Virus record (IMG/VR): IMGVR_UViG_3300030104_002966
Location: 1-20,552 of that record
Length of the DNA stretch: 20,552 bases
DNA from: a virus
Reading direction: 5' to 3' (one strand)
Part shown: one piece after another, positions 8,066 to 19,877 of the stretch
Numbering within the stretch: the first letter of the stretch is position 1
Layout of the letters: each line of letters starts with the position of its first letter
Notes under the pieces: model-generated
Database searches by the model: none
Told to the model about the DNA's origin: nothing
What the model saw: the letters and a program-made list of their open reading frames with translations, nothing else
Program-made: the position numbers and the translations under genes

Positions 8066-8716
8066 TTAGTTATTTAATTTTTCATATATCCTTTGTTGTA
8101 ATGTCTTAGGATAATTAGTTTTCTTTAATGTAAACTTACTTTCATTTGTTGCTTCTGGGTTGTGTTTAACTGGTTCAGCAACTTCAGCCGAAAGTTCTAC
8201 TTCTACATTTTCTTTAATTTCTTCTTTAGATAATTCAGATTTAACTTCTTCATTTGTTTCTTCAGAAAGTTCTTCTGTTGCTTCTACATCTTCAGGTGCA
8301 TCAACTTTATCTTCTTTAAGGTCAGCAATGGCGTCCTCAAGGTTCTTGATTCTTTTTTCCATTCCTTCCCAATCATAAACAGCTGCTTCTTCAGCCATTT
8401 CTTCTTTGATATCTTCTTTCATATCTTCTTCTTTTGCGGGTACATCATCAGACACGTCTCTCATGTCTGCTATAATTCCTTCTTCTTCAACTACTAAAAG
8501 TTTACCATCTTCAAGTACATACTCTCCAACTGGCATTGCAATTCTTTCATCATCTGATTTAATGAATATAGCTTCCCCTTTTTTAAATTCTTCTGCTTCT
8601 ACTACTGTTCCGTTTTGTAGTTTCATTTCAGCTAATTCAACTTCTCTAACTTCTTCAGTTAGTTCAATTCCACCAATAATGGTTTTGATTTTATTTAACA
8701 TGTCATTTGCTTTCAT
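8066..8716 (-). CDS. Scaffold protein candidate (acidic)
   Basis: The protein has 216 residues and is extremely rich in Glu, Asp and Lys. Residues 1-85 form a beta part (MKLQNGTVVEAEEFKKGEAIFI, MPVGEYVLEDGKLLVVEEEGIIADM) of a type I associate with proteins preceding capsid genes in Bacteroidota phages. An acidic helical middle follows, with coiled-coil potential (WEGMEKRIKNLEDAIADLKED, about 117-137), then a Glu-rich disordered stretch. The tail is basic (FTLKKTNYPKTLQQRIYEKLNN), as in scaffolds that bind capsid subunits through a basic end. It lies 12 bp before the capsid gene and directly after the promoter-like element at 8717-8752. The element's A10 tract would be in its leader. Confidence 0.65.
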   Translation of the reverse strand: MKANDMLNKIKTIIGGIELTEEVREVELAEMKLQNGTVVEAEEFKKGEAIFIKSDDERIAMPVGEYVLEDGKLLVVEEEGIIADMRDVSDDVPAKEEDMKEDIKEEMAEEAAVYDWEGMEKRIKNLEDAIADLKEDKVDAPEDVEATEELSEETNEEVKSELSKEEIKENVEVELSAEVAEPVKHNPEATNESKFTLKKTNYPKTLQQRIYEKLNN

Positions 8717-8752
8717 ACTATATAAATGTTTTTTTTTTCAACTTGTTATACC
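8717..8752 (-). promoter_or_regulatory. Promoter-like repeat, copy B, upstream of scaffold/capsid
   Basis: On the minus strand this reads TATAAC (8750-8745), six bases, ten A (8738-8729), then CATTTATATAGT directly before the scaffold ATG at 8716. The same arrangement occurs at 17351-17386 with about four or five substitutions and an identical 28-nt TATAAC-to-ATG spacing. The Bacteroidota consensus TAnnTTTG is absent and no clear -35 box is visible. I infer a phage late promoter with a -10 of TATAAC and an A-rich leader. A conserved translation element is the alternative. Confidence 0.5.
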
Positions 8753-16521: not shown

Positions 16522-16768
16522 TTCTTTTTAAAATACTTTCTTCTACTTTTGCTTTGTCCTTTTCAAATGATAACATATACAAACATTGATGCAACTTTAA
16601 TTTAGTTACTTTTGATATGTTTCTAATATCTCCCTTACTGAGTCCGTAAATGGATTGATACCAACCCCATTTTTTAATGAAGCTATCAGATGTGGAGGCA
16701 AATTCACTTCTTGCTGATTCTGTAAATAATTCACTATATGTTTCAATAATTCTCTTTTTAAATTCCAA
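16508..16768 (-). CDS. Minus-1 frame extension of the tail assembly chaperone candidate
   Basis: This open frame of 86 codons has no ATG in its first two thirds. Its first usable codon is a TTG lying on the T9 run, then EFKKRIIETYSELFTE. It continues KKWGWYQSIYGLSKGDI and LHQCLYMLSFEKDKAKVEES, a compact W/Y-rich helical domain of a kind I have seen after tail chaperone genes in Bacteroidota phages. It overlaps the zero-frame gene by 163 bp in the -1 frame. A slip at TTT-TTT would join 161 upstream residues to these 86, giving a 247-aa fusion like the lambda G-T pair. Independent start from a TTG or ATT codon is the alternative, and a base error in the T run is another. Confidence 0.6.
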   Translation of the reverse strand: MEFKKRIIETYSELFTESARSEFASTSDSFIKKWGWYQSIYGLSKGDIRNISKVTKLKLHQCLYMLSFEKDKAKVEESILKRNAKG

Positions 16769-17250
16769 AAAAAAAGTAGTGAAGCCATTACAATATCTAA
16801 AGGCATATTCTTCATATTGTATTTACTTGCAGTTTCATATTCTTCAATTCTGTATTGCCCTTTTCTTTTAAATGATATTGGCCTAAATAAAACACCCATT
16901 GCTTTATCCATTGTTTCCCATTCATTAAGGTAATTATCAAGATCAACATACTCCCCAAAAGTCATATCATCTAATTTAGGAATGAATCCAAATTCTTTTT
17001 CATTCATTCTGAATCTATCTTTAAATGCTGGTTTATCTTCAAATATTTTATTTAAGTCAAAAGTAATTTTATTAATGTCTGTTACTTTCATTCTTAAAGC
17101 ATCTATTAATCTTGTTTTACAAAATATCTCAATCATCTTCTGTTGGTAAAAAGTATTCATTTCTTTGCCATCAGTTATTTTAAGCCACTTTTGATATTGG
17201 CCTAAAGTGATTTCATTTAGTGATTCTGGTATAGTTAGTTTAATTGCCAT
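16606..17250 (-). CDS. Tail assembly chaperone candidate, zero-frame product
   Basis: The protein has 214 residues. It starts MAIKLTIPESLNEITLGQYQ, a pattern common to small phage proteins with an N-terminal beta strand and a helix. It contains LDDMTFGEYVDLDNYL and MDKAMGVLFRPISFKRKGQYRIEEYE, then LLFFWNLKRELL at the T9 run. Past the run the zero frame still reads like protein (NYLQNQQEVNLPPHLIASLKNGVGINPFTDSV), so both frames appear to be used. Lambda-type phages encode a chaperone G and, through a -1 slip, a longer G-T that helps load the tape measure. Here the pair stands at the head of the tail module, directly after the 32-aa ORF, with a 1-bp gap. Confidence 0.6.
   Translation of the reverse strand: MAIKLTIPESLNEITLGQYQKWLKITDGKEMNTFYQQKMIEIFCKTRLIDALRMKVTDINKITFDLNKIFEDKPAFKDRFRMNEKEFGFIPKLDDMTFGEYVDLDNYLNEWETMDKAMGVLFRPISFKRKGQYRIEEYETASKYNMKNMPLDIVMASLLFFWNLKRELLKHIVNYLQNQQEVNLPPHLIASLKNGVGINPFTDSVREILETYQK
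16767..16775 (-). promoter_or_regulatory. T9 slippery run for a -1 ribosomal frameshift
   Basis: On the minus strand the run is CTT TTT TTT TGG in the zero frame and contains the heptamer T-TTT-TTT, which fits the X-XXY-YYZ form of -1 frameshift sites. A one-base slip back reads TTG GAA TTT in the frame of the 86-codon ORF. I see no clear stem downstream, and stimulatory structures are hard to judge by eye. The run also makes a sequencing indel possible. Confidence 0.55.
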
Positions 17251-17251
17251 A

Positions 17252-17350
17252 TTAAAAAAGGTTAGTTGGTGTAAATGCTTTAATACTTAATTTAAGTTTT
17301 TCTTGTTCAATATATTTAATGTATTTAATTATCTTTTTAATAAGCTTCAT
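17252..17350 (-). CDS. 32-aa basic microprotein
   Basis: The minus strand has an ATG at 17350 and a TAA at 17254-17252. The product starts MKLIKKIIKYIKYIEQEKLK and ends in SIKAFTPTNLF. It is Lys/Ile-rich and could form an amphipathic helix. Copy A of the promoter-like element (17351-17386) lies directly before its ATG, and the next gene starts one base after its stop. It could be a translated leader peptide, a small membrane-active peptide or a mere leader ORF. The codons look ordinary for this genome. No homologue is known to me. Confidence 0.45.
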   Translation of the reverse strand: MKLIKKIIKYIKYIEQEKLKLSIKAFTPTNLF

Positions 17351-17386
17351 ATTATATAAATGTTTTTTTTTTGACTTTGTTATATA
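17351..17386 (-). promoter_or_regulatory. Promoter-like repeat, copy A, upstream of the tail module
   Basis: On the minus strand this reads TATAAC (17384-17379), six bases (AAAGTC), ten A (17372-17363), then CATTTATATAAT and the ATG at 17350. It is the near twin of 8717-8752: same length, same A10 tract, same 28-nt distance, same CATTTATATA core. It lies in the gap after the terminase large subunit gene, where a new transcript for the tail module is expected. There is no Bacteroidota-type TAnnTTTG box at this place. Confidence 0.5.
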
Positions 17387-17404: not shown

Positions 17405-18613
17405 TTAATAGTAATGATATTCACCCTTATTTGGGTTTTGTAATTGATAGCTTACTGCATATCTCAATGCATCAATAGCATGATTAAATTTATCTATTGG
17501 TGTTTGTGATTTCTTCTCTAACCAACAGTAGTTGTTTAGTTCTTTAATTAAATCTGTACTTTCTTCATCAATAATCAAATCATAATCTTGCAATAAGCTA
17601 ATACCATAAGTTATTGAACCTTGACCTTTTATTGCTGCTACTATATTATTGTTTCTTGTTAACTCAGAAATTAATCTTGGTTCAGCTGAATCACCTACAA
17701 TTAAATCTCTATTTGCAAATTTAGTATTTAATGTTGCTATATCACTTGTTGTGAGTTTAGGTTGGTAAAAACATAACTTAACATAAATTAGTTTATTCTC
17801 TTTATCTATATTGGTTTGTACTAATGTTGTTGGATCATTGCTAAATCCATAATCTTGGCCAAATACATTTTTCCCCACTTGTTTAAACTTTCCTATTTTC
17901 CAATTAGTAAATATTACACCTTCTGCTTTATCTAACCATGAACCAAGTATTGTGTGCTTGTATCTACTTGGCCTACGTTCTTTCATTCTTTCTATTTGCT
18001 CTATATAACTTTTACTTAGGTTTTCAATGTTATCTAAATAAGTTGTGTGAATGTAAGTTGTATCATCTTTAGTTATGTTGCTTCCAGCTTCAACACCTTT
18101 TGATTCAAACCATCTTTGATATATAAAGTTTTCTTTAGTTGTTGGATTTAGTATTAATATTACTCTATTATCTAAACCCTTTTGACGTACTGATAAATCT
18201 ATTTTATCAAACATATCTTCATCAGTCATTTCTTCTGCTTCATCAAATACCCATGTTGTAATCCCTTGTAATGATTTAAGATTTGCAGTTTGATCACCTG
18301 AACTTGTTTTAATACCTCTAAATAGTATTTTAGATTTAGTTACCTTGTTTAATACTTCATCTTTAGTTATTACAAAGTCTTCTGTTTTTTTTAGTAGTTC
18401 TATTTTTTCTATGAACTCAGGTATTATAGATATTGATGCAGAACGCAAAGTATATCTTGTAAATAGAATAGTATGCCCAGCTTCATATGTTAGTAATAGT
18501 AAGAATGTGTTAATAGCAAAGGATTTACCAGAACCCCTTCCACCAGTTACAATAAAATAACGTGAATCAGATTCTTCAAATATTTTATATTTATTGCTTA
18601 AACTTAATTGCAC
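17405..18613 (-). CDS. terL: Terminase large subunit
   Basis: The protein has 402 residues and packages DNA through the portal, cutting the concatemer. The N-terminal ATPase shows Walker A GGRGSGKS at about 24-31, Walker B VFDEAEEM near 123-130 with the acidic pair D-E, and a coupling motif ILNPTT near 155. The C-terminal RNase-H-like nuclease has FGQDYGFSND (about 252), IVGDSAEP (about 306) and NHAIDALRYA (about 378), so the three acidic residues of the triad are intact. This is the PBSX-type Terminase_3 layout. The start is a GTG at 18613, 23 bp inside the small subunit gene. Its stop precedes the tail module promoter candidate. Confidence 0.9.
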   Translation of the reverse strand: MQLSLSNKYKIFEESDSRYFIVTGGRGSGKSFAINTFLLLLTYEAGHTILFTRYTLRSASISIIPEFIEKIELLKKTEDFVITKDEVLNKVTKSKILFRGIKTSSGDQTANLKSLQGITTWVFDEAEEMTDEDMFDKIDLSVRQKGLDNRVILILNPTTKENFIYQRWFESKGVEAGSNITKDDTTYIHTTYLDNIENLSKSYIEQIERMKERRPSRYKHTILGSWLDKAEGVIFTNWKIGKFKQVGKNVFGQDYGFSNDPTTLVQTNIDKENKLIYVKLCFYQPKLTTSDIATLNTKFANRDLIVGDSAEPRLISELTRNNNIVAAIKGQGSITYGISLLQDYDLIIDEESTDLIKELNNYCWLEKKSQTPIDKFNHAIDALRYAVSYQLQNPNKGEYHYY

Positions 18614-19047: not shown

Positions 19048-19387
19048 AGGTTTTGTATAAAGTTTTCATTTGTTGTATTAAGTCCCTTACACAAGATCCA
19101 CAGCTTGATGATTCTTTTTTGGCATTAAATACTCTATTGAATATTTTTAATAGTTCTTTTTGTTCTATGTTGGTTAATGTGTTTCTATGTTTGCTGAAGA
19201 ATTCTTTTAGATAATTGTATTCATCTTCTATTAAGCATTTAGCATTTTTATATGGGAATAGTTTATTTAGTTTTTCTTTCCTGGCTTCACATCCGCAATC
19301 TTCACCCAATATGAATTTAGCTACTTTATCTATTTTTGTTTTCTTTAATACTTTTTCTATACTATCTCCTAAACCTTTAGATTTCAT
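19022..19387 (-). CDS. Conserved Cys-containing phage protein of unknown function
   Basis: The protein has 121 residues, is Lys/Glu-rich and mostly helical. It starts MKSKGLGDSIEKVLKKTKIDKVAKFILGEDCGCEARKEKLNKLFPY. A Cys pair (ED-C-G-C, about 31-33) and a second (S-C-G-S-C near 96-99) frame the middle. I recognise the pattern GLGDxxEKxxKxTxIxKV followed by DCGCxxRKExLNxxFPY from Bacteroidota phages, where it lies close to the packaging genes. The function is not established, and four Cys suggest a zinc site. It overlaps the sigma-like gene by 11 bp and encloses the start of the 40-aa gene. Confidence 0.65.
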   Translation of the reverse strand: MKSKGLGDSIEKVLKKTKIDKVAKFILGEDCGCEARKEKLNKLFPYKNAKCLIEDEYNYLKEFFSKHRNTLTNIEQKELLKIFNRVFNAKKESSSCGSCVRDLIQQMKTLYKTYEEENKEK

Positions 19388-19877
19388 TTTTTAATTTTCT
19401 TTTAATTTTTTTTTTACACTTGCTAATTGTGTTTTGTACTACTACATGACTAATTTTAGTTGCTTTGCTTAAGCTTCTAATTGTATGAAATTCCTTTCTA
19501 TATAAATTAAATAGTTTTCTATCAAACCAATAAAATGAATTTACTATTTCATCTATCTTCTTTTCTATATTGAATTTGTTTATTTCTGGTTCTTTAGTTT
19601 CTATTGTATGATTATCTTTTAATTCTGTTTTTAAGCTTTCTTGTTTTTGTGCATTTAAGTACATAGTGTACAAAATTTTATTAACATATCCAATATGTGG
19701 TTTATTGTTTTGAATTGCTTTTTTTATTACCTCATCTTTTGAACCATGAATTTTTAAATACATATCTTGTACTATATCTTCAGCAATTATGTTTTCATCA
19801 TTTATTAAAGCATCAACATTTGAAATCCATTTATTATGGTATTCAGCTAATAATGATAATACTTTGTTTTTATCCAC
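19377..19877 (-). CDS. Phage sigma factor-like protein, ECF type
   Basis: The protein has 166 residues and starts with GTG at 19877. Residues 25-75 resemble sigma region 2: IIAEDIVQDMYLKIH at 30-44, the core-binding helix of ECF-type sigma factors. A charged linker follows (80-105). Residues 105-160 resemble region 4: YWFDRKLFNLYRKEFHTIRSLSKATKISHVVVQNTISKCKKKIKR is a helix-turn-helix with a basic end. Such proteins join host RNA polymerase and select phage promoters. It lies upstream of the terminase genes, which suits a switch to late transcription. The two promoter-like repeats in this window are the obvious candidate targets (inference). It could also be a sigma-like regulator without promoter activity. 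Confidence 0.65.
   Translation of the reverse strand: MDKNKVLSLLAEYHNKWISNVDALINDENIIAEDIVQDMYLKIHGSKDEVIKKAIQNNKPHIGYVNKILYTMYLNAQKQESLKTELKDNHTIETKEPEINKFNIEKKIDEIVNSFYWFDRKLFNLYRKEFHTIRSLSKATKISHVVVQNTISKCKKKIKRKLKNEI

Follow-up and report, generated by a model that had tools for sequence, protein, structure and literature searches.

A two-box element before the structural genes of marine phages: a probable late promoter for the phages' own ECF-like sigma factor

The window analysed here is a 20,552-nucleotide stretch of viral DNA (IMG/VR record IMGVR_UViG_3300030104_002966), and its minus strand carries the block TATAAC-N6-A10-CATTTATATA(G/A)T-ATG twice. In copy B (TATAACAAGTTGAAAAAAAAAACATTTATATAGT-ATG) the TATAAC starts at 8750 and the ATG (8716-8714, minus strand) opens the gene for a probable scaffold protein, whereas in copy A (TATAACAAAGTCAAAAAAAAAACATTTATATAAT-ATG) the TATAAC starts at 17384 and the ATG (17350-17348, minus strand) opens a short reading frame behind the terminase gene. 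The features of the two loci, all on the minus strand, are as follows.

8066..8716, minus strand: 216-residue gene (MKANDMLNK...) behind copy B, a probable scaffold to judge from its position between protease and capsid
8714..8722, minus strand: copy B, TATAGT and ATG, with a predicted transcription start at most about 3 nt from the ATG, based on the box positions and the 6-9 bp seen in phage 7-11 (PMC8948821)
8723..8728, minus strand: copy B, box 2, CATTTA followed by TATAGT, -10-like; at a constant distance from box 1, with a lineage-specific sequence common to the copies of a genome
8729..8744, minus strand: copy B, 16-bp spacer, AAGTTG plus A10; variable in relatives (T9 in L126/L127, CAATTAAAAAA in L113)
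8745..8750, minus strand: copy B, box 1, TATAAC, a -35-like element; AAC core kept in 27 hand-aligned elements of 10 genomes
16606..17250, minus strand: 214-residue gene (MAIKLTIPESLNEIT...), phrog_32199, the first larger gene of the structural module behind TerL
17253..17350, minus strand: 32-codon ORF (MKLIKKIIKY...) directly behind copy A, missing in G001/G002-type relatives
17348..17356, minus strand: copy A, TATAAT and ATG, predicted transcription start on the same grounds as for copy B
17357..17362, minus strand: copy A, box 2, CATTTA followed by TATAAT (from sequence and spacing)
17379..17384, minus strand: copy A, box 1, TATAAC (from sequence)
17405..18613, minus strand: terminase large subunit (TerL), the query used for finding relatives
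19377..19877, minus strand: 166-residue ECF-like sigma factor, the proposed reader of the element (PHROG 1740 and Sigma70_r2 in homologues, and fold)

From TATAAC through ATG (37 nt) the two copies differ at only four positions (AAGTTG versus AAAGTC, and GT versus AT), the gap between TATAAC and ATG is 28 nt in both, and the sequences that flank them are unrelated to each other. When all start-codon contexts in the window were compared (49 and 57 on the two strands), copies A and B formed the best ATG-anchored pair, with 30 of 40 positions identical; the next pair reached 25, and the maximum in 60 dinucleotide shuffles was 27. The preliminary description, which had reported a repeat recurring with few substitutions, is borne out in this respect, although the end that it gave at 8752 takes in two flanking bases. 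The looser pattern TATAAC-N6-A8 with two mismatches is not enriched in the window (4 matches against 5.5 expected), so that the claim rests on the full 35-nt block and on its occurrence in relatives.

A wider search for the motif had been proposed with its first description, and an exact scan of IMG/VR (2.9 million viral contigs) returned 27 further copies, each starting 34 nt before an ATG; without exception they fall at two homologous places, behind TerL and before the MKANDMLNK gene. The relatives compared here have TerL identities of 78-99% and were supplemented by relatives found by capsid. The TerL of the window phage scores 53% against those of the Nonlabens phages P12024L/S, whose host belongs to the Flavobacteriia, and relatives carry Bacteroidota-type promoters elsewhere in their genomes; on these two grounds the host of the window phage is very probably a marine member of the Bacteroidota. 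Host-type promoters were counted as well and are too sparse for defining early promoters. A homologue of the 214-residue gene stands behind the element in the relatives compared. In some of them the post-TerL copy lies directly before the MAIKLNIPES gene, with the 32-codon ORF in between in the window, and in the G001/G002-type relatives the element directly precedes the next gene, without this ORF, which looks like a small shuffled gene. A short peptide resembling the ORF is found directly behind TerL in L044-L047. Other features occupy this region in relatives: TerL and the promoter are separated by DNA-methyltransferase-like genes (MKLYKGDCL...) in L063, L075, L077, L078, L088, L095 and L097, where the promoter keeps with the structural genes; a tandem AAGATAAGATAAGATAAG tract follows short GC-rich repeats just behind the TerL stop in many relatives (L040-L107); and L023/L030 have an insertion with a Bacteroidota-type promoter and terminator-like sequence between TerL and the late element.

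As judged from comparison of these genomes, the block is made up of two boxes that keep a constant spacing, stand before structural genes and co-vary by lineage. The element reads TATAACGATTCACTAATTTAAACGTTTATATATAA-ATG in the sister lineage, TATAACACTTAGCTAAAAAATTTACATTAATAGT-ATG in another lineage and TATAACAAATTCAATTTTTTTTTATTTATATAAT-ATG in L126, and the wider relatives carry TATAAC and C(A/G)TTTATA with a free spacer sequence between them and a variable distance to the ATG. Measured between their starts, box 1 and box 2 are 22 nt apart in the lineages of the window and its sister and 22-23 nt apart in others; the distance from the C of box 2 to the ATG is 12, 13, 14, 17 or 24 nt in the window and sister lineages and varies overall from 12 to about 30 nt. 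In G005, G007, G009, G011 and G017 the scaffold copy is the same element with its ATG further downstream than at the post-TerL copy, as in G009, which has TTTACATTAATAGT-ATG at one site and TTTACATTAATAGT-ATACAATTACATTTAAAAGT-ATG at the other. Since the same element is found at differing distances from the ATG, the conserved unit is the two-box element and not its junction with the start codon. The A tract is not kept (T9 in L126/L127 and mixed sequence in sister lineages), so A10 is free spacer. With a separation of 22 nt, or a 16-bp spacer, between TATAAC and the CATTTATA box, TATAAC would take the -35 place and CATTTATA the -10 place. The exact limits of box 2 are uncertain, as its sequence varies by lineage and the offset between the two boxes shifts by about one base in some genomes.

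Each genome of roughly 30 kb holds 2-3 strict copies, all on the coding strand and either before structural genes or within the sigma gene; a few looser regular-expression matches fall inside unrelated genes. In P12024L a related element, AAAACAAA...CGTTA(A/T)TATA-nn-ATG, precedes the genes at 179, 3031, 5412, 24771, 26011 and 27612, and in P12024L/S alike the related or analogous element sits before structural genes. On the opposite strand, host-type TATATTTG-like boxes seem to be present for small P12024L genes (L109; 2750-2980, 5123-5365 and 25649-25945, minus strand) that are placed back to back with late elements.

Two analyses that made no use of the motif recovered the element. When all start contexts were ranked, it came first in the window, G007, G018, G017 and P12024L and was among the top pairs in G006 and G019; it did not emerge from the ranking in G005, G008, G009, G011 and G016, in which leader length differs between the copies. 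In a motif-blind test, the 75 nt before the two genes were compared in nine lineages by their best local match, with partners permuted. The best match averaged 26.2 of 34 positions within a genome and 21.0 between lineages (p = 5e-5, where, the genomes being related, the permutation measures lineage-wise concerted change and not independent origins); in each genome the best match between the two regions lies on the element. In the hand-aligned version (27 elements, 10 genomes) the corresponding values for box 2 were 0.745 and 0.414. The regions upstream of the capsid gene, which served as the motif-blind control across the lineages compared, gave no such match (18-22 of 34). Each lineage thus has its own version of the element, common to its copies.

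A further copy, TATAACGATTCTTTAAATAAAGCGTTTATATATAAG, lies inside the sigma gene of the sister lineage, where it is read in frame as YNDSLNKAFIYK (L105:2226-2261, with homologues in 28 sigma genes) and retains both boxes. Among the 28 distinct sigma genes of this lineage, the 12-codon stretch with the highest synonymous conservation coincides exactly with the internal copy, where the frequency of the major codon is 0.979 as compared to 0.831 elsewhere in the gene; this peak is independent evidence for a function at the DNA level. The intragenic copy may drive the terminase genes. An in-frame ATG ATG behind it could give a fragment consisting of sigma-4 only. The post-TerL copy of the sister lineage is closely preceded by hairpins with T runs that resemble intrinsic terminators (-10 to -11 kcal/mol), and weaker ones precede this copy in G005, G006, G008 and G018; no terminator-like hairpin was found in the window.

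The candidate reader of the element is the 166-residue protein encoded upstream of TerL. All 19 relatives that were checked encode a homologue upstream of TerL, and so do P12024L/S; in P12024L this is gp35, whose annotation names sigma-70 region 2. PHROG 1740 (RNA polymerase sigma factor) is matched by 17 of the 19 homologues (best 4.5e-7) and Pfam Sigma70_r2 by three (best 1.4e-5). The window protein alone matches a sigma family weakly (PHROG 1190, E 0.0023); it has no match to Pfam sigma families, and a sequence search of the PDB with it returned nothing usable. Its AlphaFold2 model is all-helical (pLDDT 82, pTM 0.62), and the best PDB matches of this model in Foldseek are ECF sigma factors, led by SigL (6dv9_F, E 6.8e-4) and followed by SigE, AlgU and RpoE, while its BFVD matches are phage ECF-like sigma factors. 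The Foldseek E-values are modest and the whole-chain TM-scores low, as is expected if two domains are placed differently. The predicted layout is that of ECF group 4, with two domains (sigma2 and sigma4), no sigma1 or sigma3, and a length within the range of about 160-200 residues. A -35 element with an AAC core is a defining feature of this group; AAC is present in 27 of 27 aligned elements, in an alignment made by hand on that core. The most conserved part of the homologues is the C-terminal helix-turn-helix, which is where region 4 would read the -35 box. In tblastn against named phages, the window and freshwater sigma factors gave no match and P12024L gp35 matched only itself and P12024S; a search for further relatives of the G017 sigma factor found only the G017 contig. 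Every relative examined has both the sigma factor and the element, so the set holds no sigma-less control.

We propose, with a probability of roughly 0.78, that the block is a bipartite late promoter read by the phage's own ECF-like sigma factor and that it yields nearly leaderless structural mRNAs. The RNA polymerase of the Bacteroidota host, together with the small phage sigma factor, would recognise box 1 (TATAAC) at the -35 position and box 2 (CATTTA, then TATA) at the -10 position, across a 16-bp spacer whose A10 tract is incidental to the window lineage. The predicted start of transcription is the ATG itself or a position a few bases away in the window lineage, or otherwise a little upstream of the ATG, and the structural operons would be made as nearly leaderless mRNAs. 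A phage-specific class of late promoter had been suggested from the window sequence, and the placement before structural genes and the two boxes in relatives support that suggestion. The pairing of sigma factor and promoter, and the exact start site, are what we infer from these data.

Several known systems bear on this proposal, the closest in working being Salmonella phage 7-11. Its late promoters, GTAAtg-(16)-aCTA, are read by the phage sigma factor gp47, as proven in vitro, with a start 6-9 bp from box 2 (PMC8948821). Like these, the element described here is bipartite with a 16-bp spacer, is confined to late genes in low copy number, and is accompanied by a phage-encoded sigma factor with regions 2 and 4, predicted here from homologue matches and fold, with a weak match of the window sequence itself. 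The boxes differ, however (TATAAC/CATTTA versus GTAAtg/aCTA), so that the geometry is common and the sequence is not, and for this reason we do not file the element as a 7-11 promoter. The host belongs to another phylum, the sigma function is a prediction here, and the coincidence of start codon and predicted start site is peculiar to the element described here. The middle and late promoters of phiEco32, tAATGTAtA, consist of a single element without a -35 box and are read by gp36, which lacks region 4 homology (PMC8948821); T4 gp55, which likewise does without a -35 box, has just a sigma-2-like domain and acts together with gp33 and the sliding clamp (PMC2988020). The proposed system would resemble phiEco32 in that a phage sigma factor reprograms host RNA polymerase for late genes, and T4 in that a very small sigma-family protein serves them, but it departs from this single-element class in having two boxes at constant spacing and from gp55 in its predicted two-domain protein. 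Leaderless bacterial genes are marked by a TA-like box about 12 nt upstream of the ATG (PMC3160421). The -10-like box of the window likewise starts 12 nt before the start codon, yet it reads CATTTA instead of TANNNT and is joined by a strong -35-like box.

Among other explanations, the one that survives best, which we nevertheless consider unlikely, is a promoter read by the primary or an alternative sigma factor of the host with a phage activator and not by the phage sigma-like protein. The pairing with the phage protein is based on synteny, universal co-occurrence and fold only, and a host RNA polymerase core is probable in either case, as at the Bacteroidota housekeeping promoter read by sigma ABfr (TTTG / TAnnTTTG). 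However, neither box at copies A and B matches TTTG at -33 or TAnnTTTG at -7, in agreement with the departure from the TAnnTTTG consensus remarked on earlier, and a host -33/-7 promoter at these copies was rejected. The lineage-own box 2 fits a factor that evolves with the phage, the sigma gene of the sister lineage itself contains a copy, and phage 7-11 provides a precedent.

We regard as improbable the reading advanced in the preliminary description, in which TATAAC is a stand-alone -10 box and RNA starts near GTTG or GTC with an A10 leader, possibly with slippage. TATAAC does resemble the sigma-70 -10 box, and A10 is invariant in the closest relatives. The second box at constant distance, which this reading leaves unexplained, instead puts TATAAC at -35, and the copy within the sigma gene keeps both boxes. 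The A10 leader has to be given up as well, since L126/L127 have T9 at this place and other relatives have mixed sequence, and slippage to give a poly-A head was dropped since A10 is not conserved and the second box is.

It is more improbable still that the block is a translation-initiation signal, an A-rich, Kozak-like Bacteroidota leader. Its position before the ATG is fixed in the window, and bases upstream of the start codon, including A at -3, promote initiation in Flavobacterium (PMC6847099), but in several genomes the ATG lies 12-23 nt further away from the same element, one copy sits within a coding gene, and the capsid start is without such an element in every lineage compared. CATTTATATA alone as a translation signal was ruled out by the copies with a distant ATG and by the intragenic copy. 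A binding or recombination site for packaging, replication or homing that merely lies beside start codons, as one copy near the terminase gene and a partial palindrome in CATTTATATAATATG might suggest, can be dismissed almost entirely in view of the promoter-like two-box spacing, the 2-3 coding-strand copies that each head a structural gene or operon or lie in the sigma gene, and the terminator-like hairpins directly upstream in several lineages.

We place the element among the phage-sigma late promoters, as a variant of these whose sigma dependence and start site are predicted. In open-access full text, where papers behind subscription may be missed, we met no description of a promoter class of Bacteroidota phages that has a sigma factor of its own. 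In F. johnsoniae the mean leader is 33 nt and most mRNAs are leadered (PMC6847099), which counts against the proposal. A broader picture, to which we give somewhat less than even odds, is that a lineage of marine and freshwater Bacteroidota phages makes leaderless late mRNAs by means of its own ECF-like sigma factor, with transcription beginning at the start codon, in hosts where most mRNAs have leaders and Shine-Dalgarno sequences are lacking, and that the sigma gene of one sub-lineage carries a sigma-dependent promoter inside its coding sequence. Leaderless translation in a phylum without Shine-Dalgarno sequences is a testable claim, for which P12024L, isolated and culturable, offers a test system. 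The element gives a direct way of calling late operons in many uncultured marine phage genomes, an orthogonal expression system for Bacteroidota could be built on the predicted sigma-promoter pair, and box 2, which changes from lineage to lineage, would provide a natural data set on concerted change between a sigma factor and the few promoters that it reads.
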